Source: an uncultured Sphingopyxis sp. (GTDB lineage: Bacteria; Pseudomonadota; Alphaproteobacteria; Sphingomonadales; Sphingomonadaceae). Taken from it: a DNA stretch of 64,000 nucleotides. The notes beneath the pieces are model-generated. The model was not told where the DNA came from, did no database searches, and was given only the letters and a program-made list of their open reading frames with translations. The stretch covers positions 32,894-96,893 of the forward strand of contig CALMYE010000337.1 in the NCBI GenBank assembly GCA_937873425.1. The letters are read 5' to 3'. A program made the position numbers and the translations under genes. Every line of letters starts with the position of its first letter. Within the stretch, counting starts at the first letter, position 1. Positions 887 through 28,797 of the stretch are shown piece after piece.

Positions 887-897
887 CATAAGTTATT
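887..897. promoter_or_regulatory. Operator-like palindrome, site 1 (CATAAGTTATT)
   Basis: CATAAGTTATT lies in the 117-bp divergent region between the sulfatase and the TonB receptor and is followed by ATTGCAAT. It matches site 3 (minus strand, 23868-23878) over 18 positions except for the central base and the last base. On the minus strand it falls between TTGCAA and TAGTAT, a possible -35/-10 pair for the sulfatase. That it is a MarR-type operator is inferred from the five copies in the window. Confidence 0.55.
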
Positions 898-973
898 ATT
901 GCAATTCTTATGATGGACGATTATTCTCTCTGCGGAACGAGGCCCGGGAAGCGGCCCGTCGATGGGAGGGGAA

Positions 974-3460
974 ATGACGATGTTCGCATATTGCTCGCGC
1001 GCTGCCGCAACTACCGCACTCGACCGGGGCGATGCGCCGAAAAGGCCGGTTCGTCCGCAATGGATTCTGGTCCTGACCACCTCGGCGATGGCACTGGCCC
1101 TGCCCGCGACCGCCCAGGCGCAAGACGGCGCGGCCGCGGATACGGCCACCCGCCCGGCCGAAGGCTTCGAGGAAATCATCGTCACCGCCCGCAAGCGCGC
1201 GGAGAATCTGCTGGACGTCCCGGTCGCCGTTTCGGCGGTCTCGGCGAGCGAGATCGAAGCCACCGGCGTCCGCAGCATCACCGAGATCGCCGACTATACC
1301 CCAGGCCTGACATCGCAGGGCCAGGGTGCGGGCGGCCTTCCCGACCGCTCGGCCAGCCGCCTGGTCTTCCGCGGTCTTTCGACCAGCTTCGGCACCATCT
1401 TCATCAATGGCGCGCCCTATACCGGCAACAATTCGCCCGACATCACCGACCTCGAACGCTTCGAGGTGCTGACGGGGCCGCAGAGCGTCTATTTCGGCCG
1501 ATCGACCTTTTCCGGCGCGATCAATTTCGTGACCAAGAAGCCGTCGAACGACTATGCGGGGCGCGTCAGCGCGGAGGCGGGGACCGACAATCTCTACGAG
1601 CTTCGCGGGACGGTCGAAGGCCCGCTCATCCGCGACATCCTCACCGCGCGGCTGAGCGTGCGGCACTATGAGTTCGGGGGACAATATCGCTCGGCGGTGA
1701 ACGGTTTGCCGCTGGGGCAGCAGCAGACCGACAATGTCTCGCTGGCGGTGTCCGCGACGCCGTCGTCGAACGTCGACATGTCGCTCTTCTATTCCTACAG
1801 CCGCGACAATGACAGCCATCCGGCGACGGCGAAGCTGCTGCGCTTCGGCACTACGCCGCTGCTCGACTGCAACCTCGGCGGAACCAGCCCCTATTTCTGC
1901 GGCCGGCTGCCCGACCTGTCCGACATCGACCCGGCGTCGATCGGCGACAATATCGTCGTCAACAACCTGATCCGCAGCGCGCTGGTCGACAACAGCCTGC
2001 TGAATCTCGGCGGCTTCGGCCTCGGGCCGTCACTGGGCCGCTTTGGCCTCAAGCGCGACATTCATCATGTGAACGGGCGGATCGACGTCGAAACCGACGG
2101 CGGCTGGCAATTTTCGGTGCTGGGTTCCTATACCCATACGTCGCTGACCAACATCCGCGCGCTGATCGGCCGCGACACGTCCGATATTCCCAATCCCTTC
2201 ATCAACCCCGCCACCGCCGCCCTGCAGCCCGAGTTCATCCAGCTCGCGGGCCTCGCCAAGCGCGAGACCAACGACCTGTTCGGCGAATTCCGCATCTCGT
2301 CGCCGCAGGACAAGCGCATCCGCGCGACCTTCGGGGCAAGCCATTTCAAGGTCTATGGCCCGGCGACCGTCGGCTATCTGATCACCAACGTCGGCCCGTT
2401 GCCATCGACCTTCGACGGCGGCACCGATTCGGGCGTCCGCACCCCGGCGGTCTTCGGCGGCCTCTATTTCGACCTGTCGGACGATGTGACGGTCAGCGCC
2501 GAAGCGCGCTATCAATGGGACAAGATTTCGCAGCAGGCGGTGTTCCCCGTTCCGGGGCCGCTCCTCGAAAACACGTTCAAGAGCTTTTCGCCGCGCGTCA
2601 CCATCGACTACAAGGTTTCGCCCGGTCATCTGCTCTACGCGACCTTCTCGCGCGGCTTCAAGCCGGGCGGTTTCAACGCGGTGCTGCCGACGCTCGATCC
2701 CGTTCTGTCGGCGCAGGTCCCCGCCGGATTCAACACATTCTTTGCCGAGGAGCAGCTCGACAATTACGAAATCGGGCATAAGGGCAGCTGGCTCGACCGC
2801 CGGCTGCGCACGACGCTGGCGCTCTATTACCTCCAGCTGACCAACGGCCAGGTCACGACGCCGGTCTTCCTGCCCGGCCCGCCGGCGACGCCCGTCAATC
2901 TGGTCAACAACGTCGGCAAGGTGAACCTGTGGGGCGCCGAGTTCAACGGCGACCTGTTCATCAACGAGACTCTGACAATTTCGGGGTCGATCGACTATAA
3001 CGACAACAAGATCAAGCGGTCGGTCTTCCCCGACGGCGTGTTCATCCAGGGGACGACCGACGTATCGGGCAACATGCTGGACCATGTGTCGAAATGGCGT
3101 TTCAGCCTGTCGCCGGTCCTGACCTTCGACGGACCGTTCGGCGGCAAGAGCAGCCTGCGGCTCGACTGGCTCTATCGCAGCAAATGGTTCATCGACAACG
3201 GCAATTCCGCCTATGTCCGCGGCCGCCATCTGGTCAACGCCCGCGCGGGCTTCGAGGTCGGCGACGGATTCAACTTCGAGATCTACGTCAAGAATCTGTT
3301 CAACGACGACAGTTTCCCCGAGGCGTTGCGGGCGCCCGACACGCTCTATTCCGACATGCCGCCGCAGCTGACGCCGGTGATCACGCCGACGCAGAACACG
3401 ATCTTCCTCGGCCTGCCGGAAAAGCGCCGGTTCGGCGCGAAGGTCAGCCTGCAATTCTGA
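974..3460 (+). CDS. TonB-dependent outer-membrane receptor
   Basis: TonB-dependent receptors import large or scarce substrates across the outer membrane using ExbBD-TonB energy. The 828-residue product has a long N-terminal signal region ending near AQAQ, then the plug domain (EEIIVTARKRAENLLDVPVAVS, a typical TonB-box/plug start, followed by a GPQSVYFGR motif), then a beta-barrel ending in the C-terminal Phe (KVSLQF) used for barrel assembly. The ATG at 974 was chosen because GGGAGGGGAA lies directly upstream; an in-frame ATG at 962 lacks a ribosome site. The plug resembles the receptors common in sphingomonad catabolic clusters. The MBL hydrolase and GMC oxidoreductase follow on the same strand, so these three genes are probably one operon. 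Confidence 0.93.
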   Translation: MTMFAYCSRAAATTALDRGDAPKRPVRPQWILVLTTSAMALALPATAQAQDGAAADTATRPAEGFEEIIVTARKRAENLLDVPVAVSAVSASEIEATGVRSITEIADYTPGLTSQGQGAGGLPDRSASRLVFRGLSTSFGTIFINGAPYTGNNSPDITDLERFEVLTGPQSVYFGRSTFSGAINFVTKKPSNDYAGRVSAEAGTDNLYELRGTVEGPLIRDILTARLSVRHYEFGGQYRSAVNGLPLGQQQTDNVSLAVSATPSSNVDMSLFYSYSRDNDSHPATAKLLRFGTTPLLDCNLGGTSPYFCGRLPDLSDIDPASIGDNIVVNNLIRSALVDNSLLNLGGFGLGPSLGRFGLKRDIHHVNGRIDVETDGGWQFSVLGSYTHTSLTNIRALIGRDTSDIPNPFINPATAALQPEFIQLAGLAKRETNDLFGEFRISSPQDKRIRATFGASHFKVYGPATVGYLITNVGPLPSTFDGGTDSGVRTPAVFGGLYFDLSDDVTVSAEARYQWDKISQQAVFPVPGPLLENTFKSFSPRVTIDYKVSPGHLLYATFSRGFKPGGFNAVLPTLDPVLSAQVPAGFNTFFAEEQLDNYEIGHKGSWLDRRLRTTLALYYLQLTNGQVTTPVFLPGPPATPVNLVNNVGKVNLWGAEFNGDLFINETLTISGSIDYNDNKIKRSVFPDGVFIQGTTDVSGNMLDHVSKWRFSLSPVLTFDGPFGGKSSLRLDWLYRSKWFIDNGNSAYVRGRHLVNARAGFEVGDGFNFEIYVKNLFNDDSFPEALRAPDTLYSDMPPQLTPVITPTQNTIFLGLPEKRRFGAKVSLQF

Positions 3461-3496
3461 ACACGCGCCGCGATCGGCATTTGTGACGGGACAGCC

Positions 3497-4423
3497 TTGT
3501 TGAAACGATTGTCGATCGCGGTCGCCCTTGCCTGGCTTGCCGGCCCCGCGCCGGCGCAAAGCCCGTCCGACGTTCCTGTTCTGCAGGCGCATGGGCTGGG
3601 GGACGGCGTCTTCCGGGTCGAGGGCGGGGTGGCCAATGCGGGCTTCGTCGTCGGCCCGGAGGGCGTGATCGTCGTCGATGCGCAGCGCACCCCGCCCGAA
3701 GGCGCGGCGCAACTGGCGCTGATCGCCCGGATTGCACAGCGCCCGGTCGCCGGCGTCATATTGACTCACGCCGACCCCGATCATGTCGGGGGCTTGCCCG
3801 CCTATCCCGCCGATGCGCTGATCATCATGCACGAAAACGCCCGCGCGCAGATTCTCGCCGCGGCGGAGGCCGCCGACGGCGGGCCTTTCTTCGGGCCGCT
3901 ATACAAGGCGATCGCGGCCAGCCGCCTGCCGCACCGGACGGTCGCCGCCGCGGAACGCATGGTGATAGCCGGCATCATGGTGGAGATGATCCGCGTCGCC
4001 CCGGCGCACAGCGGCGGCGATCTGATCGTCCATTTTCCGGATCACCGGGTCGTCTTCGCCGGCGACATCGTGCTGACCGACCAGGGACGCTTCCCCAGCA
4101 TCCGCACCGGCGGGTCGTCGCTGGGATGGATCGCGTCGATGAAGGCCATCCTGGCGCTCGACGCCGACGTGATCGTGCCCGGGCACGGACCCGTGGCGAC
4201 CCGCGAGAGGCTCGAGGCGCAATTGAAGGACGCCGAGGAACGGCGGGCCGCAATCAAGCAGATGGTCGAGGCGGGGAAATCGCTCGCGGAAATCGATGCG
4301 GCACTGCCGCCGGAAATCGCAAATCCGCGCTTCCCCAGCTTCAACCGCACGACCTATGACGAGCTGGTGAAAGGCTATCCCGAACAAGTACCGCCCTGGC
4401 ACAGCCTGGTCGAGCGGCCATGA
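3497..4423 (+). CDS. Secreted metallo-beta-lactamase-fold hydrolase
   Basis: The 308-residue protein begins with a signal peptide (LAWLAGPAPAQS), which points to the periplasm. The MBL fold is shown by THADPDHVGG (residues 90-99), AHSGGD, FAGDI and VPGHGP, in the order of the metal motifs. The usual HxHxDH reads H91-A-D93-P-D95-H96, so the second His ligand position is Asp. A TTG start at 3497 or the in-frame TTG at 3500 is used; no better-placed ATG exists. It lies 36 bp after the TonB receptor and overlaps the GMC gene by ATGA, which indicates coupled expression. The substrate is unknown; relatives include SoxH-like and quinoprotein-associated hydrolases as well as lactonases. Confidence 0.85.
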   Translation: MLKRLSIAVALAWLAGPAPAQSPSDVPVLQAHGLGDGVFRVEGGVANAGFVVGPEGVIVVDAQRTPPEGAAQLALIARIAQRPVAGVILTHADPDHVGGLPAYPADALIIMHENARAQILAAAEAADGGPFFGPLYKAIAASRLPHRTVAAAERMVIAGIMVEMIRVAPAHSGGDLIVHFPDHRVVFAGDIVLTDQGRFPSIRTGGSSLGWIASMKAILALDADVIVPGHGPVATRERLEAQLKDAEERRAAIKQMVEAGKSLAEIDAALPPEIANPRFPSFNRTTYDELVKGYPEQVPPWHSLVERP

Positions 4424-6024
4424 TGCGGGCAGGCGGCGAGGTGCATGATTATGTCGTCGTCGGCGCGGGCTCGGCGGGCAGCGTCGTCGCGAGCCGGTTG
4501 ACCGAAGATCCGGACCGGTCCGTGCTGTTGATCGAAGCGGGCGGAACCGACCGCAGCCTCTATATGGCGATGCCGCTCGCCTATCGATTGCTCCGCACCA
4601 AGGGGCTGTTCGATTGGGGCTATGAATCGGCGCCCGAGCCCTTTGCCGACAACCGCGTGGTGGCGGCGCCGCGCGGGCGGGTGCTCGGCGGCTGTTCGTC
4701 GGTCAACGGGCTGATGTATTCGCGCGGCCACCCCGGCGACTATGACCAATGGGCGCAGATGGGCGCGTCGGGCTGGAGCTTCGACGATGTCCTGCCCTAT
4801 TTCCGGAAATCGGAGCGCAACTGGCGCGGCGAGACGGAGCGGCACGGCGGGTCGGGTCCGCTGGGCGTCGCACGCGCCGACCTGTCCGATCCGCTAACGG
4901 CGGCGCTGCACGCCACCGCCCGCCGCACCGGCCACCGCGTGGTGGAGGATTTCGAGGCCGACGGCCCCGACGGCTTCGCCCTGCCCGACCTGACGATCGA
5001 CCGGGGGCGGCGGGCCAGTGCGGCGGGGGCGTTCCTGCACCCCGCCCGGCGCCGGCCCAATCTGACGATCCGGACCGGCGCGCAGGCGATGCGCATCCTG
5101 TTCAAAGGCGTGCGCGCGGTCGGTATCGAATATCGCCGCGGCGGCCGGGTCCACACGGTGCGCGCCGCGCGCGAGGTGATCCTTTGCGGCGGCGCCTTCG
5201 CCTCGCCTCATCTGCTGATGCTGTCGGGCATCGGGCCGGCGGACGAACTGCGCCGCCACGGCATCGCGGTCCAGGCGGACCTTCCGGGCGTAGGCCGGAA
5301 CCTGCAGGATCATGTCGTGACGCCGATGATGTTCGCCGCGCGCCGGCCCTTCGCCTTCGGGCGGCACCTGCGCGCCGATCGCATCGCGCTGGCGGCGCTG
5401 ACGTGGCTGCTGACGGGCCGCGGACCCGCCGCGACGCTTCCGCTGACCTCGATTGCCTATCACCGCTCGCGCCCGGACCTCGAGCGGCCCGATCTCGAAA
5501 ACATCTTCCTACCCACCGGCATGACGGCGCGGCTCTGGTTTCCCGGCTGGCGTCCGCCCGTGCCGGACATGCTGACCTCGATCAATGTCGTGCTGCGGCC
5601 GTCGAGCCGCGGCTTCGTCGCGCTCGCTTCGGCCGATCCGTTCGCACCGCCGCGCATCCAATATAATCTGCTGGCCGACGCGCAGGATATGGAGCGCCTG
5701 AAATATATCGCTGCCTGGACCCGCGATCTGATGCGCGCGGCGCCCATAAGCGATTTCGTGGGCGAGGAGGTTTTTCCCGGTCCCGGCATCACGGATGACG
5801 AGGCTTTGGCCGCCTATGCCCGCCGGACCGTGGCGACCGCGCATCATCCCGCCGGAACCTGCGCGATCGGGCCGGTCGTCGATCCCGCGCTGCGGGTTCA
5901 TGGCGTCGAAGGGCTGCGCGTCGCCGATGCCTCGGTGATGCCCGTGCTGGTCGGCGGCCATACCAATGCCGTGGCGATCATGATCGGAGAGAAGGCGGTC
6001 GACCTGTTGAAAGCGGCGGGCTGA
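4420..6024 (+). CDS. GMC-family FAD oxidoreductase (choline/alcohol dehydrogenase-like)
   Basis: GMC oxidoreductases oxidise alcohols with FAD. The 534-residue protein opens with the dinucleotide-binding motif VVGAGSAGSVVASRL (about residues 13-27) and an Ala-Gly-rich FAD loop. It has the signature GGAFASPHLLMLSGIGP in mid-protein and ends with HHPAGTCAIG and GGHTNAVAIMIGEKA, where the catalytic His and its His/Asn partner are expected. Its size matches choline dehydrogenase and polyethylene-glycol dehydrogenase relatives. Translation is coupled to the MBL gene by a 4-bp overlap. It faces the minus-strand Rieske gene with only 24 bp between stops. No signal peptide is visible, so it is likely cytoplasmic or membrane-associated. 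The substrate is unknown. Confidence 0.9.
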   Translation: MMRAGGEVHDYVVVGAGSAGSVVASRLTEDPDRSVLLIEAGGTDRSLYMAMPLAYRLLRTKGLFDWGYESAPEPFADNRVVAAPRGRVLGGCSSVNGLMYSRGHPGDYDQWAQMGASGWSFDDVLPYFRKSERNWRGETERHGGSGPLGVARADLSDPLTAALHATARRTGHRVVEDFEADGPDGFALPDLTIDRGRRASAAGAFLHPARRRPNLTIRTGAQAMRILFKGVRAVGIEYRRGGRVHTVRAAREVILCGGAFASPHLLMLSGIGPADELRRHGIAVQADLPGVGRNLQDHVVTPMMFAARRPFAFGRHLRADRIALAALTWLLTGRGPAATLPLTSIAYHRSRPDLERPDLENIFLPTGMTARLWFPGWRPPVPDMLTSINVVLRPSSRGFVALASADPFAPPRIQYNLLADAQDMERLKYIAAWTRDLMRAAPISDFVGEEVFPGPGITDDEALAAYARRTVATAHHPAGTCAIGPVVDPALRVHGVEGLRVADASVMPVLVGGHTNAVAIMIGEKAVDLLKAAG

Positions 6025-6048: not shown

Positions 6049-7089
6049 TCAGACGCGCCGTCCGTCGGCAGAATGCGCCCTTTCGCCCCGTATCAGCCGT
6101 TGCAGGACGCGACGGGCCAAGATTGCTCCGCTGTCGTTCGACAGGACGAGCGGCTCGAGATCCCAGAAATCGCGGTCGCCCATATTCCGCTGCACCTCTT
6201 CGAGCATGACGCCGTCCTCGCGCTCGAAGACATCGAGCGCCAGTGCGAGCTTCTGCCGGCGCCCGGCATCGGCATTCTCGAAGAAATAATGCGTCGTCCT
6301 CGCCGTTTCCGGGGTCATGATATGCACCCCGGCCCTTGCGGCGCCCGGCCCACCGTCGCCGACAGGTCCGATCTCGTTGCGCAGGATCATCACGCCGGCG
6401 GGATACCAGGTGACCTCGAACCGGCTGTTCACCTCGGCACCGTCGCGTAGCGGCCGTTCCATAGCCATGCCCTTGCCCGTAAAGGCCCATTCGACGGTGA
6501 CGATATCGCCGTGAAGCCGCGCCCTCGCCCCGGCTCGCGCGATTTCCCCGCCGGTTCCCAAAGTCGCGGGATGAATGAAGTCGGCGTGACTGAGATCGAG
6601 GATATTGTCCGAAAGCAGCTGGTAATTCGCCTTGGTGAGCAGATGGCCCGGCGCCCGATCGTCGGGAGAAGCCGTCTCCAGCAAGGACAGATCGGGAATG
6701 CGCGCCGGATCGGCGGCCGCGCGATCGCCGGGCCATATCCACAAGGCGCCGTGGCGCTCGACGAGCGGATAATCGGCAACGCGCGCCCGTTCGGCGATCC
6801 GGCCGTCGCCATGCGGGTTATGAACGCACCGCCCCTCCATGTCGAAACGCAGCCCATGATAGGGGCATTCGACGAGATCGTCCTCGAACCGGCCTTCACT
6901 GAGCGAGGCGAAGCGGTGCGGACAGACATTGCCGATCGCGGCGACACCGCCCTTCGCGCCGCGCATCAGAAGCACCGGCCTGTCGAGCAGCACCCGCTTC
7001 CTATGCTCGCCGGGCCGCAATTCGCTTGCCCAGGCGGCGACATACCAGCAATCGAGAAGATAGGGCGCCGCGGATACATCGTCCTTCAT
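6049..7089 (-). CDS. Rieske oxygenase, VanA-like (aryl demethylase/monooxygenase type)
   Basis: This 346-residue protein is the terminal oxygenase of a Rieske non-haem iron system, closest in layout to vanillate O-demethylase VanA and toluenesulfonate methyl-monooxygenase. The [2Fe-2S] ligands are C56-P-H58 and C75-P-Y-H78. The mononuclear iron site is D165-L-S-H168 with H173, and Asp165 would bridge electrons between subunits. It is the last gene of the esterase-ALDH-hydrolase operon, 16 bp after the hydrolase. The usual VanB-type reductase is not adjacent and not in the window, so electrons must come from elsewhere. O- or N-demethylation, or methyl-group oxidation feeding the nearby aldehyde dehydrogenase, are plausible roles. 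Confidence 0.88.
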   Translation of the reverse strand: MKDDVSAAPYLLDCWYVAAWASELRPGEHRKRVLLDRPVLLMRGAKGGVAAIGNVCPHRFASLSEGRFEDDLVECPYHGLRFDMEGRCVHNPHGDGRIAERARVADYPLVERHGALWIWPGDRAAADPARIPDLSLLETASPDDRAPGHLLTKANYQLLSDNILDLSHADFIHPATLGTGGEIARAGARARLHGDIVTVEWAFTGKGMAMERPLRDGAEVNSRFEVTWYPAGVMILRNEIGPVGDGGPGAARAGVHIMTPETARTTHYFFENADAGRRQKLALALDVFEREDGVMLEEVQRNMGDRDFWDLEPLVLSNDSGAILARRVLQRLIRGERAHSADGRRV

Positions 7090-7105
7090 CGGCTGTCGTC
7101 CTCGG

Positions 7106-7915
7106 TCATGACGGGCGGCGCAGCATTTCCAATGCGTCCGCGACGAGCGCCGCGAGCATCGCCGGGTCGGTCAGATGGGCGAAATGGCTCTGCCCATGGA
7201 CGGGCAGCAGGGTCAGGCCGGCGATGCGCCGAACGAAGCCCGCGGCATTGTCGCGCGTCCACTGGTCGGCCATCGACCCGAGCAGCAGGGCCGTCGGCGC
7301 CCTCAGCGCGGCGCAATCCTCGATCGTCGGCGCGAAGCCGTCCAGCGCCTCGCATTCGCGCAGAAAGGTCCCGAGCAGCGCGTGGTGATGGTCCCAGGTC
7401 GGCGTGCCGCGCGTTGCCTCGACGAAATCGGCCGGCATCCGCAGAACGCTGGTATAGAGCAGGGCCAAGGCGTCCGTGGTTCGTCCGTCATCGAACAGCG
7501 CCCGCACCGGCCGCAGCTTGTCCCCGCCGACCGGCGCGGCGACCGCCGTCGTCGGTTCGTAAAGGACCAGCCTGCCGTCAAAGCCCGCGCGCAGCGCATA
7601 GCCAAGCGAAAGCGCCCCGCCATAGGAGTGACCGAACAGGTCGACGTCGCCGCCCAGCGCCGACACGACCGCAGCCAGATCGTCGATTTCCCGGTCCAGG
7701 CTGTGCGCCGGCGCGTCGCCGCTGCGTCCCCTGCCTCGCCGTTCGACGATCACCACGCGGCGCCTGTCCGCGAGCGACCGGGCGGTCGCGAACCATTCGT
7801 CGGCGACGGTGAAGCCGCCGTGCGAAATCAGCAGCGGCCGTCCTGCGCCAAAGGCGACATAGGCGATCTCCACGCCGTCGGCGGAAGTGATCCGATGCTC
7901 TTCCGGGTCGATCAT
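7106..7915 (-). CDS. Alpha/beta-hydrolase
   Basis: The 269-residue protein has the alpha/beta-hydrolase fold: oxyanion region SHGGF, strand and turn VIVERRGRGRSG, nucleophile elbow GHSYGG, the acid position following LLLGS, and a C-terminal VHGQSHFAHL bearing the catalytic His. The ATG at 7915 was chosen because AGGAGG lies 5-6 bases upstream; the longer open frame lacks a ribosome site. It lies 23 bp after the aldehyde dehydrogenase in the same operon. It could be a meta-cleavage product hydrolase, an esterase or an enol-lactone hydrolase; sequence alone does not decide. With an esterase two genes upstream, a role on an ester or ring-cleavage product is likely. Confidence 0.85.
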   Translation of the reverse strand: MIDPEEHRITSADGVEIAYVAFGAGRPLLISHGGFTVADEWFATARSLADRRRVVIVERRGRGRSGDAPAHSLDREIDDLAAVVSALGGDVDLFGHSYGGALSLGYALRAGFDGRLVLYEPTTAVAAPVGGDKLRPVRALFDDGRTTDALALLYTSVLRMPADFVEATRGTPTWDHHHALLGTFLRECEALDGFAPTIEDCAALRAPTALLLGSMADQWTRDNAAGFVRRIAGLTLLPVHGQSHFAHLTDPAMLAALVADALEMLRRPS

Positions 7916-7938
7916 GCGCACCTCCTGCCGATGACGGA

Positions 7939-9396
7939 TCAATAGAGCCGGGCGATGACCGACTTGGTTTCCATGAAGGCATCGAGCCCCTGCGCGCCGC
8001 CCTCGCGCCCCCAGCCCGATTCCTTGTAGCCGCCGAAGGGCGTCCAGAAATCGGTCGGGCGGTGGGTGTTGATCCAGATGGTCCCGGCGCGAATGGCGCG
8101 TGCGACGCGATGCGCCTTCGACAGCGAATTCGTATAGACGGCGCCCGCCAGCCCGTAGCGCGAAGCGTTTGCCTGCTCGATGGCCCAATCGAGATCGTCG
8201 AACGGCATCGCCGACAGCACGGGGCCGAATATCTCCTCGCGCACGACCCGCGCGTCGGCGGGCGCGTGCGACAGGATTGTCGGCTCGATGAAGAAACCGC
8301 GGTCCCCGCGCCGCTTGCCGCCGGTTGCGACTTCCGCCCCCTCGGCCACGCCGCTTTCGATATAGGCCATGACGCGGTCGAACTGGACCTGCGAGATCAC
8401 CGGTCCCATCTGGGTCGCCTCGTCGAGTCCGTTGCCCACGACCAGCTTCGACGCGATGTCGGCAACCGCCGCCATCAGCCGGTCATAGATGCCGCGTTGC
8501 GCATAGAGCCGCGAGCCCGAATGGCAGGCCTGGCCCGAATTGCTCATGATGCCGCCGACGATTGCGGGCGCCGCCATGTCGATGTCGGCGTCATCGAGCA
8601 CGATGACGGGCGACTTGCCGCCCAGTTCGAGTGAAAGGCGCTTGAAGTTGCCGGCGGACGCCTGAACCAGCTTGCGTCCGGTCGCGGTCGAGCCGGTGAA
8701 ACTGATCTTGTCGATGTCCGGATGCTCGGCCAGCGCCTGGCCGGCGACGGCACCCAGCCCGGTGACGACATTGACCACGCCCGGGGGCACGCCCGCATCC
8801 TGCACGATGCGCGCAAGGCGGAGCGTGTTGAGCGACGTGTCCTCGGCCGGCTTCAATATGACGGCGCAGCCCGCCGCCAGCGCCGGGGCCAGCTTGTGGC
8901 AGGCGAGCATGAACGGCCCGTTCCACGGCACGATCAGCGCCGCGACGCCGACCGGTTCCTTCAGCGTGAAGCCGTGAAAGGCGTCCCCGGCGCCGATTTC
9001 GCCGGTCTGGCCGTGGATCTTGCCGATCCAGCCGCCGAAATAGCGGAACGCTTGCGCGCCATTGACGATGGTGGCGCGCGCCGTCGCGATCGGCATGCCA
9101 TTTTCGCGCACCTCGGCCACCGCCAGTTCATCCGTCGCCGCCTCGATCCGGTCGGCGATGTCGAACAATATCTTCGCGCGCCGCGGATAGGGAATGGCGA
9201 GCCAGCGCCGCTCGTCGAAGGCCGCGCGCGCCGCGCGGACGGCCGCATCGACGTCCTGCGCGTCGCCCGCGGCGACGTCGCCCAGGCTCTCGCCGGTCGC
9301 CGGATCGATGCTGGGGAAATAGGTGTCCGAACCCGCTTCCCGCCACGCACCGTCGATAAGAAGCGTCTCCGCTCCGCCGCCTGTTGCCATCTCCAT
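7939..9396 (-). CDS. Aldehyde dehydrogenase, NAD(P)-dependent
   Basis: This 485-residue protein belongs to the ALDH superfamily and oxidises an aldehyde to its acid. It shows the cofactor region IVPWNGPFMLACHKLAPAL, the FTGSTATG turn, the general-base motif LELGGKSP and the nucleophile motif NSGQACHSGSR with the catalytic Cys. The start at 9396 has GGGAGAGGAT just upstream. It lies between the carboxylesterase (46 bp) and the alpha/beta-hydrolase (23 bp). Together with the VanA-like oxygenase this suggests that a side-chain or demethylation-derived aldehyde is oxidised here. It is distinct from the second ALDH of the window (16952-18484), which is of the hydroxymuconic semialdehyde type. Confidence 0.9.
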   Translation of the reverse strand: MEMATGGGAETLLIDGAWREAGSDTYFPSIDPATGESLGDVAAGDAQDVDAAVRAARAAFDERRWLAIPYPRRAKILFDIADRIEAATDELAVAEVRENGMPIATARATIVNGAQAFRYFGGWIGKIHGQTGEIGAGDAFHGFTLKEPVGVAALIVPWNGPFMLACHKLAPALAAGCAVILKPAEDTSLNTLRLARIVQDAGVPPGVVNVVTGLGAVAGQALAEHPDIDKISFTGSTATGRKLVQASAGNFKRLSLELGGKSPVIVLDDADIDMAAPAIVGGIMSNSGQACHSGSRLYAQRGIYDRLMAAVADIASKLVVGNGLDEATQMGPVISQVQFDRVMAYIESGVAEGAEVATGGKRRGDRGFFIEPTILSHAPADARVVREEIFGPVLSAMPFDDLDWAIEQANASRYGLAGAVYTNSLSKAHRVARAIRAGTIWINTHRPTDFWTPFGGYKESGWGREGGAQGLDAFMETKSVIARLY

Positions 9397-9442
9397 ATCC
9401 TCTCCCGCCCGGCCGGTCGCCTGCTGGCGCGTCCCTGCCCGC

Positions 9443-21381: not shown

Positions 21382-23781
21382 TCAGAATTTGGTCGACAAC
21401 TGAACGGCGAAGGATCGCGCCCTGTCGACCCTGGTCGCGACCGCGGTCGATCCGGTCATCGCCGCGCGGTAGTTGCCCGTGGCCTGGTTCGTCACATTCT
21501 TGGCGATGACGGCCAGTTCCCAGCGGTCGTCGACGGCGCCGAGCGAGGCCCGAAGATCGAGCTTCGCATAGGCCGGCTGCGACGTCAGCGGATCGACGTT
21601 GGCCTGCTGGAAAAAGCGCGACGAGAAATAGAGCCAGCTCCCCAGCTTGAGCTTCACGTCCGATGAAAGATCGGCGGAATAGTTGGCGCTGACGCTGCCG
21701 CTCCATTTGGGGGCATAGGCCTTTCGCCCCCCGCGGAGATTGGGCACCGGGCAAACCGGCGCGATCTGGGCGATCAGAGCCGGGTCGGTGGGCCGAATCG
21801 GGCACGGCGCATTCACATAGTCGAGATATTTGGCATCGAGATAGCCGACATTGGCGGACAGGCTGAAATCGGAGAACGGACGGATGCCGACTTCCAGCTC
21901 GACGCCCCGCGCGCGCGCCTTTCCGACGTTGGCGATCACCGACTGATTGATGCCGTTGGCATCGATGATCGTCGTCGATTCCTGCAGATCGTCATAGTCG
22001 CTGTTGAAAACCGTGATGTTGGTCGTCAAACGCCGGTCGAGCCAGGTCGCCTTGATGCCGGCCTCGTAGGACTTCACGGTTTCCGGGTCGAACTCGTCGA
22101 GGTTCTGGCCGATCGACCAGCCGCCGGCCTTGAAGCCGGTGGCAAAGGACACATAGGCCATGACATCGGGCGTGATGTCATACTGGAGGTTGACCGAAGG
22201 CATGAACTTGTCGTCGGTGCGCTTCGTGTTCACATAGTCGCCCCCGACGCGTCCGACCCTGGTCCAGGTGGCGAACTGCGCCGGCGTCAATTCCTCGACG
22301 ACCTGGCCGATCGCGTTGCCGCGGCCCGCGCGGGTGGTGCGGTGCGCCCTTTTCTTGATCGAGCTGTAGCGCGCGCCGAGATTGATGCGGAAGGCGTCCG
22401 ACAGATTGATGGTCGCCGCGCCGAACACCGACCTGTTGGACTGATCCTGGTCGCCGGTGACTTCCTGCGCGATCGGTGTCCCGGAAGGGATGACCGCGGC
22501 CCCGGTCGCCCCGGCGCTCGTATTGGCGGTGGCAGCGAAATTGGCGAAGTAGAAGCCCGTGTTGATCGCGCCCTTCATGTTGGAATCGTCGTAATAGAGC
22601 CCCAGCATATATTCGACCGGGCCGCCCTTGTCGGATTCGAGGCGCAGTTCCTGGCTGAACGAACGGAATTTCTCCGGCTGCGAAAGCGGCAATCCGTTGG
22701 GCAGGTTGGCGCCCGGAAAGGCGAAGGAGGCACCGCTCAAGGTCGTCCGGAACAGATCGTGATAATAATATCCGGTCGTCGAGGTGAAGGTCAGCCCGCC
22801 GACCGGCACGGCGATGTCCAGCGCCCCGCTGACCGATTCCAGCTCGAAACTGGCATCGCCCGAGGCGGTGACGAAATTGAGCCTGTTGTCCTGATCGCCC
22901 GGAACGAGAATTCCGGCGCAGGTTCCGGCAGGCTGGTCGAAATTGGGGCCCGCGCCGTAACCCGGCGCCGGCGGGCAGTTCACGATCTCCTGAAGCTCCG
23001 TATGCTTGTCGTCATATTTGGCGTAATCGACCCGCAGGTTCACGTCGATGTCGCCGGGCGTTTCGTAGCGCAATGCGAGGCGGGCCTGCATATCGGAATT
23101 GTTCGGCCCTTTGTTGTCGAGCCGCAGATTCTTGATATAGCCGCCCATTCCGAACAGTCGGAACGCGCCGCGCATCGACAGCCCCTCCGCCAGCGGACCA
23201 CCGACCGCTGCCTGGACGTCATATTCGTCGTCGGACGGCGAATAGAGGGCCGATGCATAGCCCTCGAGATTCTGGCCCGGCTTCTTGGTGACGATGCTCA
23301 GCGCGCCCGCGATGGTATTGCTGCCGAAATAGGTCGATTGCGGCCCCTTCAATATCTCGATCCGTTCGAGATCGAGAAAACCGCCGCGAATGACCTGCGA
23401 CCGCGCCACATAGACGCCGTCCACGAAGATGCCCACGGCCTGCTCGAAGCCCATGTTGAAGCCCGAGCCGATACCGCGAATGTTGAGCGAGTCCGAAGCC
23501 CCGCCGGTGTTGATCTTGACCCCGCTGACGCGGTTGCCGAGATCGCCCAAGGTGCTGATCTGGGATGTCCGCAAAGTGTCGCCGCTCGCAACGGCGATGG
23601 AAATCGGCACATCCTGCAGGCTCTGCTCGCGCCGCTGCGCCGTAACAATGATATCGCCGTCCCCGGCTACGGAATCGCCCTGATCGCTCGTCTGGGCGAA
23701 GGCCGCCTGCGGCGCCGCGACGCCCCCTACGGCCAGTCCCACGCAGGCGGCCGCGCTCAAATAGCACCATTTCCCAGGCAT
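21382..23781 (-). CDS. TonB-dependent outer-membrane receptor
   Basis: The 799-residue receptor has a signal peptide (LAVGGVAAPQAAFAQ), the TonB-box/plug start GDIIVTAQRREQSLQDVPIS, the plug motif ILKGPQSTYFGSNTIAG, and a barrel ending in the Phe of QLSTKF. The ATG at 23781 follows GGGAGAC; upstream in-frame Met codons would ruin the signal peptide. The promoter region carries palindrome site 3 and the two LigB-fold genes lie upstream on the same strand. A strong hairpin follows the stop. This is the second receptor tied to the shared palindrome; it is similar in size to the first but clearly different in sequence. Substrate unknown. Confidence 0.93.
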   Translation of the reverse strand: MPGKWCYLSAAACVGLAVGGVAAPQAAFAQTSDQGDSVAGDGDIIVTAQRREQSLQDVPISIAVASGDTLRTSQISTLGDLGNRVSGVKINTGGASDSLNIRGIGSGFNMGFEQAVGIFVDGVYVARSQVIRGGFLDLERIEILKGPQSTYFGSNTIAGALSIVTKKPGQNLEGYASALYSPSDDEYDVQAAVGGPLAEGLSMRGAFRLFGMGGYIKNLRLDNKGPNNSDMQARLALRYETPGDIDVNLRVDYAKYDDKHTELQEIVNCPPAPGYGAGPNFDQPAGTCAGILVPGDQDNRLNFVTASGDASFELESVSGALDIAVPVGGLTFTSTTGYYYHDLFRTTLSGASFAFPGANLPNGLPLSQPEKFRSFSQELRLESDKGGPVEYMLGLYYDDSNMKGAINTGFYFANFAATANTSAGATGAAVIPSGTPIAQEVTGDQDQSNRSVFGAATINLSDAFRINLGARYSSIKKRAHRTTRAGRGNAIGQVVEELTPAQFATWTRVGRVGGDYVNTKRTDDKFMPSVNLQYDITPDVMAYVSFATGFKAGGWSIGQNLDEFDPETVKSYEAGIKATWLDRRLTTNITVFNSDYDDLQESTTIIDANGINQSVIANVGKARARGVELEVGIRPFSDFSLSANVGYLDAKYLDYVNAPCPIRPTDPALIAQIAPVCPVPNLRGGRKAYAPKWSGSVSANYSADLSSDVKLKLGSWLYFSSRFFQQANVDPLTSQPAYAKLDLRASLGAVDDRWELAVIAKNVTNQATGNYRAAMTGSTAVATRVDRARSFAVQLSTKF

Positions 23782-23867: not shown

Positions 23868-23878
23868 AATAAGTTATG
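23868..23878. promoter_or_regulatory. Operator-like palindrome, site 3
   Basis: AATAAGTTATG on the plus strand; on the minus strand CATAACTTATT is followed by ATTGCAT. It lies in the 165-bp gap before the TonB receptor at 23781. Its extended match to site 1 includes the ATTGCA box. Operator function is inferred. Confidence 0.55.
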
Positions 23879-23946: not shown

Positions 23947-24945
23947 CTATCCCGGACTTGCAGGGCCCTTGTCCGCAGCGTCCCACAGCACCCAGCCGCA
24001 GCCCGCGGTCGCGATATGGGCGGGAAAATAATCGACCACCTCGCAGCGATAGGCGCCCTGGGCCGCGTGCATCGCGCCCGCGGCGACCAGCCAGGTCCGA
24101 AGCTCCCCGGTGCCCGAATCGGTCGCGGCGGACTGAAAGGAGAAAAGCGCCTTCAGCGCTTCGACGTCGCCGCGTTCGAGGCAGTCGAGCACCCAGCGGT
24201 CGAGCGGCTCGTCGACCCATCCCGACAGGGGGCCGGAAGGATCGTGCGACATCCCGCCGCTGCCATAGATGGCGACGGGGTCGGGCAGCGCGGCGCAGAT
24301 GTCGGCGATCGCCCGGCCCAGCGCCAGGCAGCGCTCGCCGGTGAGCACCGCCTTCGACCGCTCGATCGTCTTGACGATCACCGGGACCACCGGGATGTCG
24401 AGCGCCGGCATGATCAGCGGCAGCGGCCGCGTCAGCGCGTGCGGCGCCTTGCGCTCGGGACGGCCCTGCGGATGGATCTTCCGGCTGATCGCAACGTCGA
24501 AATCGCGGCGCACCAATTCGGTCTGCAGATGGGCGGCCAGGTCCGCCGCCGAGCGGAGCGTGACGCCGAAGCGATCGGGATTCTCCCAGAAACGGAGCGG
24601 GGGGTCGGCGTCGAAATCGCCATAATTATGGAATCCCTCAATATCCCCCTCGCCCGAATAGATCATTACATTGGGCAGGTTGGCGGCGGAGAACCATTCG
24701 TCCTGGTCGCCGGCGACGACGATCAGCGCGGCGGGCTTCACCGCGGCGAGCGCGCTGGCGAGCCGGGCAAAGGCCCCGTCCCTTCGCGCGACCCAGTCGG
24801 CGACGCAGACCGCGTCCTGCCGTTCGGCCTCGGGCGGCTGCGGCACGCCGTCGCTGATCAGTTTCCAATAGCGCTGCCAGCCGGCGTGCGTGTCCTGGAA
24901 CAGGCTCGGAAAATGGGACGAGGCCATCCCCAAAATTATCGGCAT
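23947..24945 (-). CDS. LigB-fold (class III extradiol dioxygenase) protein with changed metal residues
   Basis: This 332-residue protein matches the LigB layout of protocatechuate 4,5-dioxygenase: ASSHFPSLF (H11), AGDQDEWF (79-85), the KAPHALTRPL segment (H169), GSGGMSHDPSGP (H234) and ELRTWLVAAGAM. Aligned by eye to LigB, H12, H127 and H195 are retained as H11, H169 and H234. The iron ligand His61 (of YNDH) falls on Gln81, and Glu242 falls on Gly278 with a Glu three residues later. It overlaps the upstream paralogue by 10 bp and they are probably co-translated. It could be an extradiol dioxygenase with another ligand arrangement or a non-oxidative relative. Confidence 0.75.
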   Translation of the reverse strand: MPIILGMASSHFPSLFQDTHAGWQRYWKLISDGVPQPPEAERQDAVCVADWVARRDGAFARLASALAAVKPAALIVVAGDQDEWFSAANLPNVMIYSGEGDIEGFHNYGDFDADPPLRFWENPDRFGVTLRSAADLAAHLQTELVRRDFDVAISRKIHPQGRPERKAPHALTRPLPLIMPALDIPVVPVIVKTIERSKAVLTGERCLALGRAIADICAALPDPVAIYGSGGMSHDPSGPLSGWVDEPLDRWVLDCLERGDVEALKALFSFQSAATDSGTGELRTWLVAAGAMHAAQGAYRCEVVDYFPAHIATAGCGWVLWDAADKGPASPG

Positions 24946-25868
24946 GACGGCTGCTCCCATGCGATGAAACCCACGCCGGCCGCACCATGATGCACCGGCA
25001 TATAATCGATCAGCCGGGCGCGGCAGCCGGCCTCCTCCAGCGCGGCGCCGGCCACCGTCCAAAGCCGGATCTCGGCCGAGCTGCCCTGCAGGGTCCGCGA
25101 CCGCGCGTCCCAGATGCCCGCGATATCGCCCGACCGGCCCCGGACCAGGCGCGTCAGCACCCACCGGTCGAGCACGTCGTCGACCCAACCCGCCATCGGC
25201 CCGTGCGGATCGCCCGACAGCCCGCCGCTGACGAGAAGTCCGATCCGCTTTTCGGTCAGCCCCGCCGCCTGCGCGAGAGCGCGGCCGAAGCGATGGAGGC
25301 GCGGGCCCGGCAGGACGGGTTCGACATGGCAATTGACGTGCAGGGGAATGACGGGGAGGCGCCCCCCCAGACGCCTCCCCGCCTCCGCCGCAGCCGGGGT
25401 CACGCCCCGTCCGGCGTCACCCAGCGGCCGGAACAGGCCGCGTCCTTCCGAAATATCGAAGCCGGCCCGCACCAGTTCCTCGACCAGCACCTCGGCGAGC
25501 GCATCGTCGCAGGCCAGACGCACCTCGTCCGCTTCCTCGCCGAGGTCGGCGATGGCGGGATCACCCCAGATCTCGCCGCCGACCTGGACGTGCAGCTGGG
25601 GGACGTTCGACAGGTCGAACACATCGCCGCGGTCGGCATGGAGCAGGATCAGCGCATCGAGCTCCGCCGCGTCGATCAGGCCCGCGAGCGTGCCGAACGC
25701 GGCGCCGATCCGCCGCTCATAGTCCGCCAGCCGCTCCTCCGTCTCCTCCTCGCGGCTCCGCGGCTGAACGATGTCTCCGACCAGAAATTCCGAAATGTCC
25801 CGCCACCGGCTTCGCGGCCGATACATCAGCGGCGAATGGCTCAGGCCGACTCCAAGCACGATTGGCAT
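24936..25868 (-). CDS. LigB-fold paralogue, strongly degenerate active site
   Basis: The 310-residue protein shares the layout of its downstream neighbour: GLSHSPLMY (H11), LHADRGDVFDLSNVP, GGLSGDPHGPMAGWVDDVLDRWVL, EIRLWTVAGAAL and the DYMPVHHGAAGVGF tail. Compared with LigB, His61 falls on Arg80, the second His on Arg154, the catalytic His195 on Gly219, and Glu242 on Ser; only His12 is kept. The ATG at 25868 follows GGGAGAG. Its coupled translation with the less degenerate paralogue suggests a heteromer in which this subunit is structural. It is divergent from the Rieske dioxygenase, with palindrome site 4 between. Confidence 0.72.
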   Translation of the reverse strand: MPIVLGVGLSHSPLMYRPRSRWRDISEFLVGDIVQPRSREEETEERLADYERRIGAAFGTLAGLIDAAELDALILLHADRGDVFDLSNVPQLHVQVGGEIWGDPAIADLGEEADEVRLACDDALAEVLVEELVRAGFDISEGRGLFRPLGDAGRGVTPAAAEAGRRLGGRLPVIPLHVNCHVEPVLPGPRLHRFGRALAQAAGLTEKRIGLLVSGGLSGDPHGPMAGWVDDVLDRWVLTRLVRGRSGDIAGIWDARSRTLQGSSAEIRLWTVAGAALEEAGCRARLIDYMPVHHGAAGVGFIAWEQPSCR

Positions 25869-25936: not shown

Positions 25937-25970
25937 TTGACAGCATTTTACTTTGCTAGCATAACTTATG
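25937..25970 (+). promoter_or_regulatory. Promoter with overlapping palindrome, site 4 (CATAACTTATG)
   Basis: TTGACA at 25937-25942 is followed after 17 bases by CATAAC (25960-25965), a reasonable -35/-10 pair for the Rieske dioxygenase. The perfect palindrome CATAACTTATG (25960-25970) covers the -10, as expected for a repressor site. The gap is shared with the divergent LigB-fold genes. Confidence 0.6.
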
Positions 25971-26016: not shown

Positions 26017-27381
26017 ATGGTGAGAGGGGTGCAAATGGACGGCGATACGATTGACGGTCGGCTGGTGGACGCCGAGGCGGGCCTGATCGACCGGCGGATT
26101 TTTTCCGACCAGGATATTTTCGAACAGGAAGCGAAGCAGGTGTTCGGCAAGTCCTGGCTGTTCGTCGGCCATGAAAGCCAGATTCCGAACAACGGCGATT
26201 ATTTCACCTCGCAGGCTGGTCGCGACGCGGTCGTCGTGACCCGCGATTCGGACGGCGAGGTGCGGGTCATGCTGAACATGTGCACCCATCGCGGCATGCC
26301 GGTATGCCGCTATGACAAGGGCAATGCGAAGCGGTTCACCTGCCCCTATCATGGCTGGACCTTTTCCAACAACGGCGACCTCAGCGGCCTGCCGCTGTCG
26401 ACCGACGGCTATGGCGGCCAACTCGACCGCAAGAAATGGGGCCTGATCCAGGCGCGCGTGACGCTCTACCACGGCTCGATCTGGGCCACCTTCGACGCGG
26501 CGGTGCCGCCGTTCGAGGAAACGCTCGGCGACATGGCGGTGATGCTCCGCGACTTCATGCAGGGTCCGGACGGCGAGGACGACGGGCTGGAGGTCATCGA
26601 CGGCATCCTGAAGTTCGAAATCCACAGCAACTGGAAGTTCGGCGCCGAAAACAACGCCGGCGACCTGTATCACGACGTCAGCCACAATTCGGTCCAGCGC
26701 GTCGGGCTCGCCCTCTCCGGCCTGCGCGGCCGCCATGTCTGGAACGCCGACAAGCACAGTTTCAAGATATTGAACGTCGCCTATCCCGCGGGCGGACACG
26801 CGGCGCGCGTCAACCTCTACGACGACGAGCAGCGCGAATATCATCCGCAATGGGCGGTCGTTCCGGAAGTCGACGAATATTTCCGCGCGGCCCATTATGC
26901 GCGTCAGGACCGGCTGGGCGAAAAGGCCCGGCTGCTCAATCGCGGCGGCATCGTCTTTCCCAACATTGCCTATAATTCGGCGGGACGCTGGCAGATCACC
27001 ATGTGGGTTCCGAGGGCGCCCAACCGCACCGAGGTGTGGAAATGGTATTTCGTGCCGAAGAAGGCGCCGCAGAAGGTCAAGGACACGCTGCGCCACTATC
27101 TGCTCCGCTATGGCGGCCCGTCGGGGATGGTCGAGCAGGACGATATCGAGAATTGGGCCTCGGCGCAGGTCGGCGCGGAGTGCGCGGCCGCCAACCGGCT
27201 GCCCATGAACTACACGCTCCACATGGGGCAGGCGCAATGGGCCTGGCCCGTCCCCTGGTTCGGCGAGGGCGCCTATGTCGACGAAGGCGTATCCGAGCAT
27301 GCGCAGCGCGTTTTCTATGCGCGCTGGGCCGAGATGATGGGCCACCCGGCCATCGAACAGGGGCAGGAGGCCGGCCGGTGA
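26017..27381 (+). CDS. Aromatic-ring-hydroxylating dioxygenase, large (Rieske) subunit
   Basis: The 454-residue alpha subunit has the Rieske ligands C89-T-H91 and C109-P-Y-H112 and the mononuclear iron motif ENNAGD216-LYH219-DVSH223. Spacing between the two His is three residues, shorter than the four of naphthalene or benzoate dioxygenases. It would add O2 across an aromatic ring, or hydroxylate it, in a complex with the beta subunit encoded next. ATG at 26017 has GGAGAG upstream; an in-frame ATG at 26035 with GAGAGGGG is equally possible. No ferredoxin or reductase gene is nearby. Promoter site 4 suggests control by a MarR repressor. Confidence 0.92.
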   Translation: MVRGVQMDGDTIDGRLVDAEAGLIDRRIFSDQDIFEQEAKQVFGKSWLFVGHESQIPNNGDYFTSQAGRDAVVVTRDSDGEVRVMLNMCTHRGMPVCRYDKGNAKRFTCPYHGWTFSNNGDLSGLPLSTDGYGGQLDRKKWGLIQARVTLYHGSIWATFDAAVPPFEETLGDMAVMLRDFMQGPDGEDDGLEVIDGILKFEIHSNWKFGAENNAGDLYHDVSHNSVQRVGLALSGLRGRHVWNADKHSFKILNVAYPAGGHAARVNLYDDEQREYHPQWAVVPEVDEYFRAAHYARQDRLGEKARLLNRGGIVFPNIAYNSAGRWQITMWVPRAPNRTEVWKWYFVPKKAPQKVKDTLRHYLLRYGGPSGMVEQDDIENWASAQVGAECAAANRLPMNYTLHMGQAQWAWPVPWFGEGAYVDEGVSEHAQRVFYARWAEMMGHPAIEQGQEAGR

Positions 27382-27938
27382 AGGACGAGAGCATGATCGC
27401 AACCGGCGACCGCAGCCATCAGACCACCCTGCCCGCTCCGTCGCTCAAGGAGCGGGTCGAAGATTTCCTCGCCCTCGAAGGCGAGTTGCTCGACGAGCGG
27501 CGATTCGACGAGTGGCTGGAGCTGTTCGCCGACGATGCCCGTTACTGGATGCCGCTCGCGCGGAACATCGAGCATGATAATCTGGCCGCGGAATATACCC
27601 GCGAACAGCAGGACGCGGCATGGTTCGACGAGGACAAGAAAACCCTGTTGCAGCGCGTGATGCAGTTGAAGGGCGGAGACCATTGGGCCGAAGAGCCCTT
27701 TTCGCGAACCACCCACATCACGGCCAATATCCGCATCGAAAGCGCGTCGGAAACCGAACTGACCGTCAAGAGCCGCTTCATCGTCTATGTGAACCGGCGC
27801 GAGGGCGAAGTCCGCCTGTTCGTCGGCAAGCGGATCGACGTGCTGCGCCCCGACGGCGAGGGCTTCCTGATCGCCAAGCGGTCGATCTTTCTCGATCAGA
27901 GCAAGCTGCTCTTCAAGAATCTGACGACATTCTTCTGA
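27378..27938 (+). CDS. Aromatic-ring-hydroxylating dioxygenase, small subunit
   Basis: The 186-residue protein has the NTF2-like fold of dioxygenase beta subunits: VEDFLALEGELLDERRFDEWLELFADDARYWMP, then THITANIRIE and SRFIVYVNRREGE, and a C-terminal RSIFLDQSKLLFKNLTTFF. It builds the alpha3beta3 hexamer and has no cofactor. GTG at 27378 overlaps the alpha stop as GTGA with AGGAGG eight bases upstream and is preferred to the ATG at 27393. A strong hairpin lies 19 bases after the stop, so the operon probably ends here. Confidence 0.9.
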   Translation: MKDESMIATGDRSHQTTLPAPSLKERVEDFLALEGELLDERRFDEWLELFADDARYWMPLARNIEHDNLAAEYTREQQDAAWFDEDKKTLLQRVMQLKGGDHWAEEPFSRTTHITANIRIESASETELTVKSRFIVYVNRREGEVRLFVGKRIDVLRPDGEGFLIAKRSIFLDQSKLLFKNLTTFF

Positions 27939-28043: not shown

Positions 28044-28577
28044 CTACTTGCCCTGCTCTTCGACAAAGCCGTCGATATTGGCATAGCAGCGCTCGAGAAG
28101 GCTGGTGAACTGCACCACCTCCTGCTCCGAAAAGCCATCGACCAGCGCGTCCAGAAATTTCTGCCTTCTCGCCGCGACCTTCTTCGCCAGCGATTTCCCG
28201 GACCTGGTCAGATACACCAGCGCCTTGCGCCGGTCGGTGCTGTCGGCGCGCCGTTCCAGCACCCCCGCCCTTTCCATCGCGTCGATCGCCTTGCCGATCG
28301 CCGCATCCTTCAGGTCCAGCCGGTGACCCAGTTCGCGTTGCGACATGCCGTCCTGCGCGCGAAGGACGGCGAGGGGATACCAGGCGCTGACCGCAAGATC
28401 GAGCGGAGCGAGCATGATCTCGATCGCCCTGACCTCGCGGATGCGGATGGTCCGGACGAGATAATCGATATCGCCCTTGAACAAGGGCTCCAGGGCTGAA
28501 TGCGTGGCCTGAAACTTGTGAGGGCCAGAAACCGATGTGCGGATATTGGCATTTGGTTGCATGATTTTCTGGGTCAT
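28044..28577 (-). CDS. MarR-family transcriptional regulator
   Basis: The 177-residue protein has the MarR winged helix: SAWYPLAVLRAQDGMSQRELGHRLDLKDAAIGKAIDAMERAGVLERRADSTDRRKALVYLT, with the D-x-R-K wing. The N-terminal ~30 residues are extended and polar. ATG at 28577 has GGAAAG very close; an in-frame ATG at 28559 is possible. It is convergent with the ring-hydroxylating dioxygenase. It is the second candidate, with the MarR protein at 11045, for the CATAANTTATG sites. A weak inverted repeat just upstream of its start may be its own operator. Confidence 0.88.
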   Translation of the reverse strand: MTQKIMQPNANIRTSVSGPHKFQATHSALEPLFKGDIDYLVRTIRIREVRAIEIMLAPLDLAVSAWYPLAVLRAQDGMSQRELGHRLDLKDAAIGKAIDAMERAGVLERRADSTDRRKALVYLTRSGKSLAKKVAARRQKFLDALVDGFSEQEVVQFTSLLERCYANIDGFVEEQGK

Positions 28578-28599
28578 GACTTTCCGATGCTAAATATTG

Positions 28600-28616
28600 A
28601 TCAAGAAATCTTTGAT
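28600..28616. promoter_or_regulatory. Inverted repeat upstream of the second marR gene
   Basis: ATCAA (28600-28604) and TTGAT (28612-28616) are separated by 7 bases, 22 bases upstream of the start codon. MarR genes are often autoregulated through such repeats, but the arms are short and chance is possible. Confidence 0.3.
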
Positions 28617-28786
28617 TCATTCGGGCAGGACGAGTAGCGCCATATGGTCGCCTCACAGGCGCAAATCAAAAAGCCAACCAAAGTCCGCGGACATTTTTCC
28701 TCGGCCCCCAGCCATGCCGCTTCCCGTCGCCATAAGCCCGTCGGCGCAATCGCAAGACAAGTCCAAAGCAGATGCTGTTTTGCTAT

Positions 28787-28797
28787 CATAATTTATG
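28787..28797 (+). promoter_or_regulatory. Operator-like palindrome, site 5, without a gene behind it
   Basis: CATAATTTATG is a perfect palindrome around its central base. The 32-base segment 28780-28811 differs from that at site 4 by only about six bases, including the flanking TTTGCTA and the downstream GCAAT. The TTGACA of site 4 is not conserved. No credible gene follows on the plus strand until 29717. Confidence 0.5.

Follow-up and report, generated by a model that had tools for sequence, protein, structure and literature searches.

Predicted MarR-type repressors and operators in an aromatic catabolic cluster of an uncultured Sphingopyxis sp.

Described repressors and the present locus

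Several bacterial repressors govern aromatic catabolism in ways that bear on the locus examined here. DdvR, a MarR-type protein of Sphingobium sp. SYK-6, represses the TonB receptor gene ddvT and ligXa (PMC6874591), and DesR, of the same type and strain, binds inverted repeats that resemble one another and precede several catabolic genes as well as its own (PMC6888825). CouR of Rhodococcus jostii RHA1 is a catabolic repressor of the MarR type that a compound of the pathway releases (PMC4737184), and PheR of Sphingobium sp. SHPJ-2 is a single repressor for the uptake and catabolism of an aromatic compound (PMC13273656). We analyzed a window of 64,000 nucleotides from an uncultured Sphingopyxis sp. 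(contig C337:32894-96893; genome of 4.34 Mb in 337 contigs), in which the palindrome CATAANTTATG, with the half-site structure CATAA-N-TTATG, recurs within a catabolic cluster that encodes two MarR-type proteins, MarR-1 and MarR-2. Comparison of sequences indicates that one MarR-type repressor, encoded next to its targets, very probably docks at this palindrome, and that a second palindrome and the second MarR protein probably control the final ring-cleavage operon.

Compared by description, the locus resembles the DdvR system, a sphingomonad MarR-type repressor joining TonB-dependent uptake to aromatic catabolism, and the principle of such joint control is known (PMC6874591). However, the substrate of DdvR (DDVA) and its genes differ, and the present cluster joins more units, namely a sulfatase, an esterase and several TonB receptors. 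With DesR, the locus shares repeats placed before multiple catabolic genes, but the DesR repeats (GTTTGTGTCACATAC and relatives) differ from CATAANTTATG (PMC6888825). The core here is CATAANTTATG and not an operator of that type (a GTTTGTGTnACATAC-like repeat), and the word TonB is absent from the text of PMC6888825. CouR is related to MarR-2 through a fold match (5cyv), but serves another pathway, and its sequence similarity is only distant (26% in the fold match). PheR belongs to the IclR family and has the core GCAACG (PMC13273656).

The CATAANTTATG palindrome and its predicted reader

Copies of CATAANTTATG were scored as exact or by their number of mismatches. All five sites listed in the preliminary description of this DNA are present (operators 1 to 5 in Table 1): three are exact (10975, 25960 and 28787) and two carry one mismatch (887 and 23868). 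At one mismatch or fewer, the window holds six matches against 0.28 expected, a number reached in 0 of 100 shuffles. Only four exact copies occur in the genome (contig 25696, 43868, 58853 and 61680); they span less than 36 kb, and 4/4 lie inside one 37.5-kb block that makes up 0.86% of the 4.34 Mb. Six of the 16 one-mismatch copies also fall in the cluster block, the other ten being scattered, and the reversed control pattern gave eight matches genome-wide at up to one mismatch. Within the block (contig 24.5-62.0 kb), nine of the ten exact or one-mismatch matches are wholly intergenic, the DNA being 91% coding by our own gene calls, in which two starts were set by hand. Shuffling the intergenic DNA of the block 300 times gave a mean of 0.077 matches and a maximum of one, against nine observed. 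Motif frequency within genes had been chosen beforehand as a check on the operator proposal, and the motif proved not to be spread through genes genome-wide. The part of the contig to the left of the window holds four further matches, at 25696, 27174, 29794 and 29809, the last two being neighbors at a distance of 15 bp; from these matches and the genome count, the cluster therefore starts about 7 kb left of the window. The placement of sites before uptake, ester- and sulfate-removal and ring-oxidation genes was borne out by the Pfam annotation of the neighbors, with operators 1, 3 and 4 and the sites at contig 27174 and 29809 covering both TonB receptors and catabolic genes.

Orthologs of MarR-2 were found in three of the 298 family genomes: our own, G094 (59% identity) and Rhizorhabdus histidinilytica (G174; 56%). 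In 11 other family genomes the match was only 26-43% identical. Four more came from a scan of named genomes: Sphingopyxis panaciterrulae (89%), which holds the nearest named cluster found, and metagenome-assembled genomes (MAGs) of Marinicaulis (61%), Niveispirillum (57%) and Sphingomonadales (59%). Locus L065 is taken to be R. histidinilytica (G174) again, so seven MarR-2 genomes, our own included, were compared; they span Sphingomonadales, Parvularculales and Rhodospirillales. Gene matches in the relatives' loci were listed above 33% identity, and the Pfam scan took in part of the genes (four in L064). A class-wide search for MarR-2 returned our own genome only (1/385 at E 1e-30), and plasmid relatives of MarR-2 and of the Rieske alpha subunit were all below 60% identical.

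The motif accompanies this protein: it occurs with at most one mismatch in 7/7 MarR-2 clusters and exactly in 6/7. Over the seven clusters, CATAA-N-TTATG gave 12 exact matches and 27 with at most one mismatch, against means of 0.06 and 1.46 and maxima of 1 and 6 for 69 other half-sites of like composition. Each of the four newly examined ortholog loci (L061-L064) has an exact copy, as against none of four paralog loci (L066-L069), which together hold four one-mismatch matches; the fifth ortholog locus, L065, has one-mismatch sites only. In the complete genome G094, both exact copies lie within 18 kb of its MarR-2. An extended form, TAGCATAANTTATK, was found in 4/298 family genomes, comprising 3/3 with MarR-2 at 56% identity or more and 1/295 without it (Fisher 9e-7, an optimistic value, since G094 and G174 were already known when the pattern was set). 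Scanning viral_contigs with the extended motif gave two matches, with no cluster gene found at either.

MarR-2 exceeds the Pfam cut-offs for PF01047 (36.7 bits vs. 24.6) and PF12802 (35.4 vs. 27). A winged helix is predicted (H80-86, H91-103, E107-111 and E119-123), the first-ranked PDB matches are MarR proteins, and the recognition helix LKDAAIGKA is unchanged in 7/7 genomes. Against the named MarR equivalogs of NCBIfam (HpaR, SlyA, OhrR, Saro_0803 and others), the best scores were 53.8 bits for MarR-2 (cut-off 240) and 44.4 bits for MarR-1 (cut-off 200). Of the regulators in our own cluster, MarR-2 alone has a relative in each of the seven clusters. Since MarR-2, the motif and the LigB/Rieske genes travel together, the assignment to MarR-2 proceeds by elimination of other regulators. 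The earlier proposal that one MarR repressor, of two candidates, links uptake, ester and sulfate removal and ring oxidation finds support in this comparison, which points to MarR-2.

The position of the core within promoters was also examined. A TTGACA lies 16-17 bp before it at 8 of 27 sites, from five genomes, each of which includes the gap between the LigB and Rieske genes. Operator 4 covers the -10 position, as had been suggested, because it follows TTGACA (25937-25942) by 17 bp; at the esterase promoter, the core starts a few bases after a minus-strand TTGACA. A second, weaker copy of the motif lies exactly 15 bp away, with a mean score of 5.67/10 at this offset and of 2.4-4.3 at offsets 11-14 and 16-40. 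The dinucleotide TG at -6/-5 of the core is kept in 20/24 sites. Under the same two-sided test, the pair ranking second in conservation (19/24) belongs to a TGCAAT element farther out. For the offset and TG counts, 24 of the 27 sites were used (contig 51375, L064:4777 and 29794, which pairs with 29809, were left out). Per-column counts used 26/27 sites oriented by best fit, which flatters the flanks, and the TG test was repeated without a choice of orientation. The operator looks compound on these counts, the weaker copy standing at 15 bp. The ATTGCA noted beside sites 1 and 3 is indeed there, on opposite strands. The TGCAAT element follows the core at 25978-25983 (site 4, 7 bp away, and likewise in several relatives) and at 900-905 (site 1, 2 bp).

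Several observations weigh against MarR-2 as the reader of CATAANTTATG. Its structure model is of moderate confidence (mean predicted local distance difference test score 69). MarR-2 was never seen without the LigB/Rieske genes, and LigB at 64% identity or more occurs only in the same 3/298 genomes. One genome, G203, has an extended-pattern match and lacks a MarR-2 ortholog, and G174 (contig C36) and G122 each hold one isolated exact match; the 3 kb read around each of these three lone matches contained no cluster. A site with at most one mismatch stands directly before MarR-2 in 3/7 genomes, and autoregulation is not general. TTGACA is absent at the -35 distance from 18-19 of the 27 sites. 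The LigB/Rieske gap has a site with at most one mismatch in 4/6 relatives; in the other two it is worn to 2-3 mismatches in the right half, the TTGACA scaffold staying. The exact copy at contig 25696 faces no cluster gene.

Co-occurrence cannot separate the MarR-2 protein from its cluster, and a regulator encoded elsewhere might read the motif while MarR-2 does something else. We regard this as improbable: the motif goes with the cluster in three orders (Sphingomonadales, Rhodospirillales and Parvularculales), and an unlinked regulator would need to do so too; the MarR-2 recognition helix is invariant; and in the Marinicaulis locus the recognized genes are cluster genes, with MarR-2 as the sole regulator among them.

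MarR-1 has still less claim to CATAANTTATG, and we rejected it as the reader. It is a MarR protein, the end of its gene is some 60 bp from operator 2, and its presence alone correlates with the extended motif (3/7 vs. 1/291, Fisher 3e-5), but this correlation arises because the three MarR-2 genomes carry both proteins. Among MarR-1 genomes, the extended motif occurs in 3/3 with MarR-2 and in 0/4 without it (Fisher 0.029), and those four have no CATAANTTATG match with up to one mismatch in the operon regions fetched. The MarR-1 module occurs without the motif, its operon has a conserved palindrome of its own, of which TAGGACGTATAC is one arm and the center, and in R. histidinilytica MarR-1 lies on contig C58 and the motif cluster on C24. 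Conversely, loci L061-L064 have the motif, and no MarR-1 was found in the DNA fetched there. That the palindrome is instead a promoter element, a -10 variant for a special sigma factor, as its -10 spacing from TTGACA at the Rieske/LigB and related promoters might suggest, is scarcely credible given its exact two-fold symmetry and the second copies at exactly 15 bp. In addition, most copies lack a -35-like match at this spacing, one is placed about 210 bp upstream of MarR-2, and the Pfam scan of 30 cluster proteins returned no sigma factor.

We therefore consider it highly likely that CATAANTTATG is the core operator of MarR-2. The meta-cleavage operon is probably governed by MarR-1, acting at the TAGGACGTATAC palindrome. 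By analogy with DesR and DdvR (PMC6888825, PMC6874591), we infer that MarR-2 represses its targets and is released by an aromatic inducer. Without the inducer, a MarR-2 dimer would occupy the palindrome, covering the -10 or lying immediately upstream of it, and keep RNA polymerase off the TonB receptors, the sulfatase and the carboxylesterase operon; it would likewise shut the VanA-like Rieske oxygenase, the LigB pair and the Rieske alpha and beta genes. Inducer binding would free all these promoters at once, in this species probably including that of MarR-2 itself. The copy at 15 bp could accommodate a second MarR-2 dimer or a wider contact, perhaps with two dimers per promoter.

Operators and neighboring genes

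Table 1. Coordinates of predicted operators, regulators and neighboring genes (window positions unless marked contig)
Feature	Position	Strand	Context or basis
Sulfatase, 5' part, running on left of the window	1..826	-	Pfam Sulfatase; TTG start with AAGGAGG
Weaker second copy CATATACTATG, 2 mismatches	872..882		15 bp left of operator 1
Predicted operator 1 CATAAGTTATT	887..897		Between sulfatase (-) and TonB receptor (+)
TonB-dependent receptor	974..3460	+	Pfam on 1088-3460; start read from sequence
Metallo-beta-lactamase-fold protein and GMC oxidoreductase	3509..6024	+	Pfam
VanA-like Rieske oxygenase, alpha/beta hydrolase, aldehyde dehydrogenase, carboxylesterase	6049..10945	-	Pfam
Weaker second copy TATATGTTATG, 2 mismatches	10960..10970		15 bp left of operator 2
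Predicted operator 2 CATAACTTATG	10975..10985		Between MarR-1 stop and carboxylesterase operon (-)
MarR-1, predicted reader of the TAGGACGTATAC palindrome	11045..11530	-	Last gene of meta-cleavage operon; Pfam MarR_2
Meta-cleavage operon	11588..18484	-	Pfam
Imperfect palindrome TAGGACGTATACATCT, predicted MarR-1 operator	18498..18513	-	Before meta-cleavage operon
Two MFS transporters	18564..21265	-	Pfam
TonB-dependent receptor (third of the cluster)	21382..23781	-	Pfam on 21382-23742; start read from sequence
Predicted operator 3 AATAAGTTATG	23868..23878		Before TonB receptor (-)
Two LigB-like extradiol dioxygenase subunits	23947..25868	-	Pfam
-35-like TTGACA, Rieske alpha/beta promoter	25937..25942	+	17 bp before operator 4
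Predicted operator 4 CATAACTTATG	25960..25970		Gap between LigB pair (-) and Rieske alpha (+)
Rieske dioxygenase alpha and beta	26035..27938	+	Pfam
MarR-2, predicted reader of CATAANTTATG	28044..28577	-	Pfam MarR above cut-off
Predicted operator 5 CATAATTTATG	28787..28797		About 210 bp before MarR-2 start
Motif site	contig 27174		Before VanA-like Rieske oxygenase and ferredoxin
Motif sites	contig 29794/29809		Between alpha/beta hydrolase and TonB receptor

Several operators keep their place in relatives. The Marinicaulis locus has an exact copy at the same sulfatase/TonB divergence as operator 1 (L062:9588), a site with at most one mismatch precedes the ortholog of the operator-3 TonB receptor in 5/6 relatives (the gene was not found in the fetched Niveispirillum DNA), and operator 5 is kept in S. 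panaciterrulae (L061:9842). In the LigB/Rieske gaps at L062:3975 and L064:6110, TTGACA and the left half CATAA remain, but the sequence of the right half is CATCTK, as though a single half-site had been eroded or binding were different at these gaps.

Among the gene products, that of 23947-24927 has LigB and an MhpB-type enzyme as PDB relatives. The Rieske alpha and beta subunits are nearest to the NCBIfam models HcaE and HcaF, alpha falling under the cut-off, and their PDB relatives are biphenyl dioxygenase. The meta-cleavage operon encodes two FAA-hydrolase-fold proteins, an HMGL/DmpG aldolase, an acetaldehyde dehydrogenase, a class II aldolase, an extradiol dioxygenase and an aldehyde dehydrogenase (ALDH). 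At L064:8117-9786, the Sphingomonadales MAG has two additional genes separating Rieske beta from MarR-2, which the window lacks at this position, and an IS66 transposase follows at L064:11790; one of the two encodes an HpcH/HpaI aldolase, which is a clue to the pathway.

At the left margin, 7.2 kb outside the window, the exact copy CATAAATTATG (contig C337:25696) lies in a 544-bp gap of 47% GC, lacks TG at -6/-5, and is flanked by a NifU-like gene and a 290-residue protein with no Pfam match; it is probably the edge of the cluster. Right of operator 5, about 880 bp of lower-GC DNA (28800-29680) holds no convincing gene and is possibly a decayed one. Beyond it, ion-transport genes outside the system (DUF389, NhaA-type antiporter, BacA, TrkA and TrkH) occupy 29681-36931.

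A separate palindrome before the meta-cleavage operon

The preliminary description held that the meta-cleavage operon is controlled separately, and this agrees with what was found: from 18484 down to MarR-1 at 11045 the operon has no CATAANTTATG site except a chance match on a start codon, and it has a palindrome of its own, common to other MarR-1 genomes. The chance match, which is the sixth of the window (CATAAATCATG at 18482), was rejected as an operator; it overlaps the ALDH start codon, its flanks differ, and the operon region of G094 has no match there at up to two mismatches.

TAGGACGTATAC forms one arm and the center of an idealized palindrome, TAGGACGTATACGTCCTA, of which no perfect copy was seen. 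MarR-1 occurs at 58% identity or more in 7/298 family genomes. Among the ten genomes searched, TAGGACGTATAC stands before the meta operon, once per genome, in five (our own, G174, G225, G245 and G257); its reversed control gave one match in the same ten, in G174. G094 has a one-letter variant before the operon, the G254 contig begins inside the operon, and three genomes of the same genus without MarR-1 have no copy. Gene matches above 45% identity were listed in this comparison of operon regions. Further near copies of the MarR-1 palindrome lie nearby in G174 and G225, which suggests a larger MarR-1 regulon in these two genomes; these copies (GGACGTATAGGTCC and the like, at L072:2950, L072:12185, L073:4205 and L073:9585) are each followed by TATCTTGAC.

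Through the TAGGACGTATAC palindrome, MarR-1 would repress the lower pathway. The two modules are separate in other genomes and joined here, and the upper and lower pathways may therefore answer to different inducers. In such a modular circuit, MarR-2 and the compound CATAANTTATG operator would govern uptake, de-conjugation and the first ring attack, and MarR-1 with TAGGACGTATAC ring fission, with stepwise release at promoters bearing two dyads; we would take an even bet on this arrangement.

Searches of open-licence PubMed Central brought up neither the regulators nor their two operators, the compound form with its 15-bp spacing or the division between two MarR proteins; no search was aimed at the MarR-1 palindrome itself. 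An operator like CATAANTTATG was not seen there either, judged by titles and the opening lines of abstracts, nor was a paper that names a substrate for this cluster. The locus offers two uncharacterized repressors from an environmental degrader, with predicted operators and target lists, that could be used as biosensor parts. The findings suggest the passage of a catabolic cluster from order to order without loss of its operators, and a separate switch for the lower pathway.

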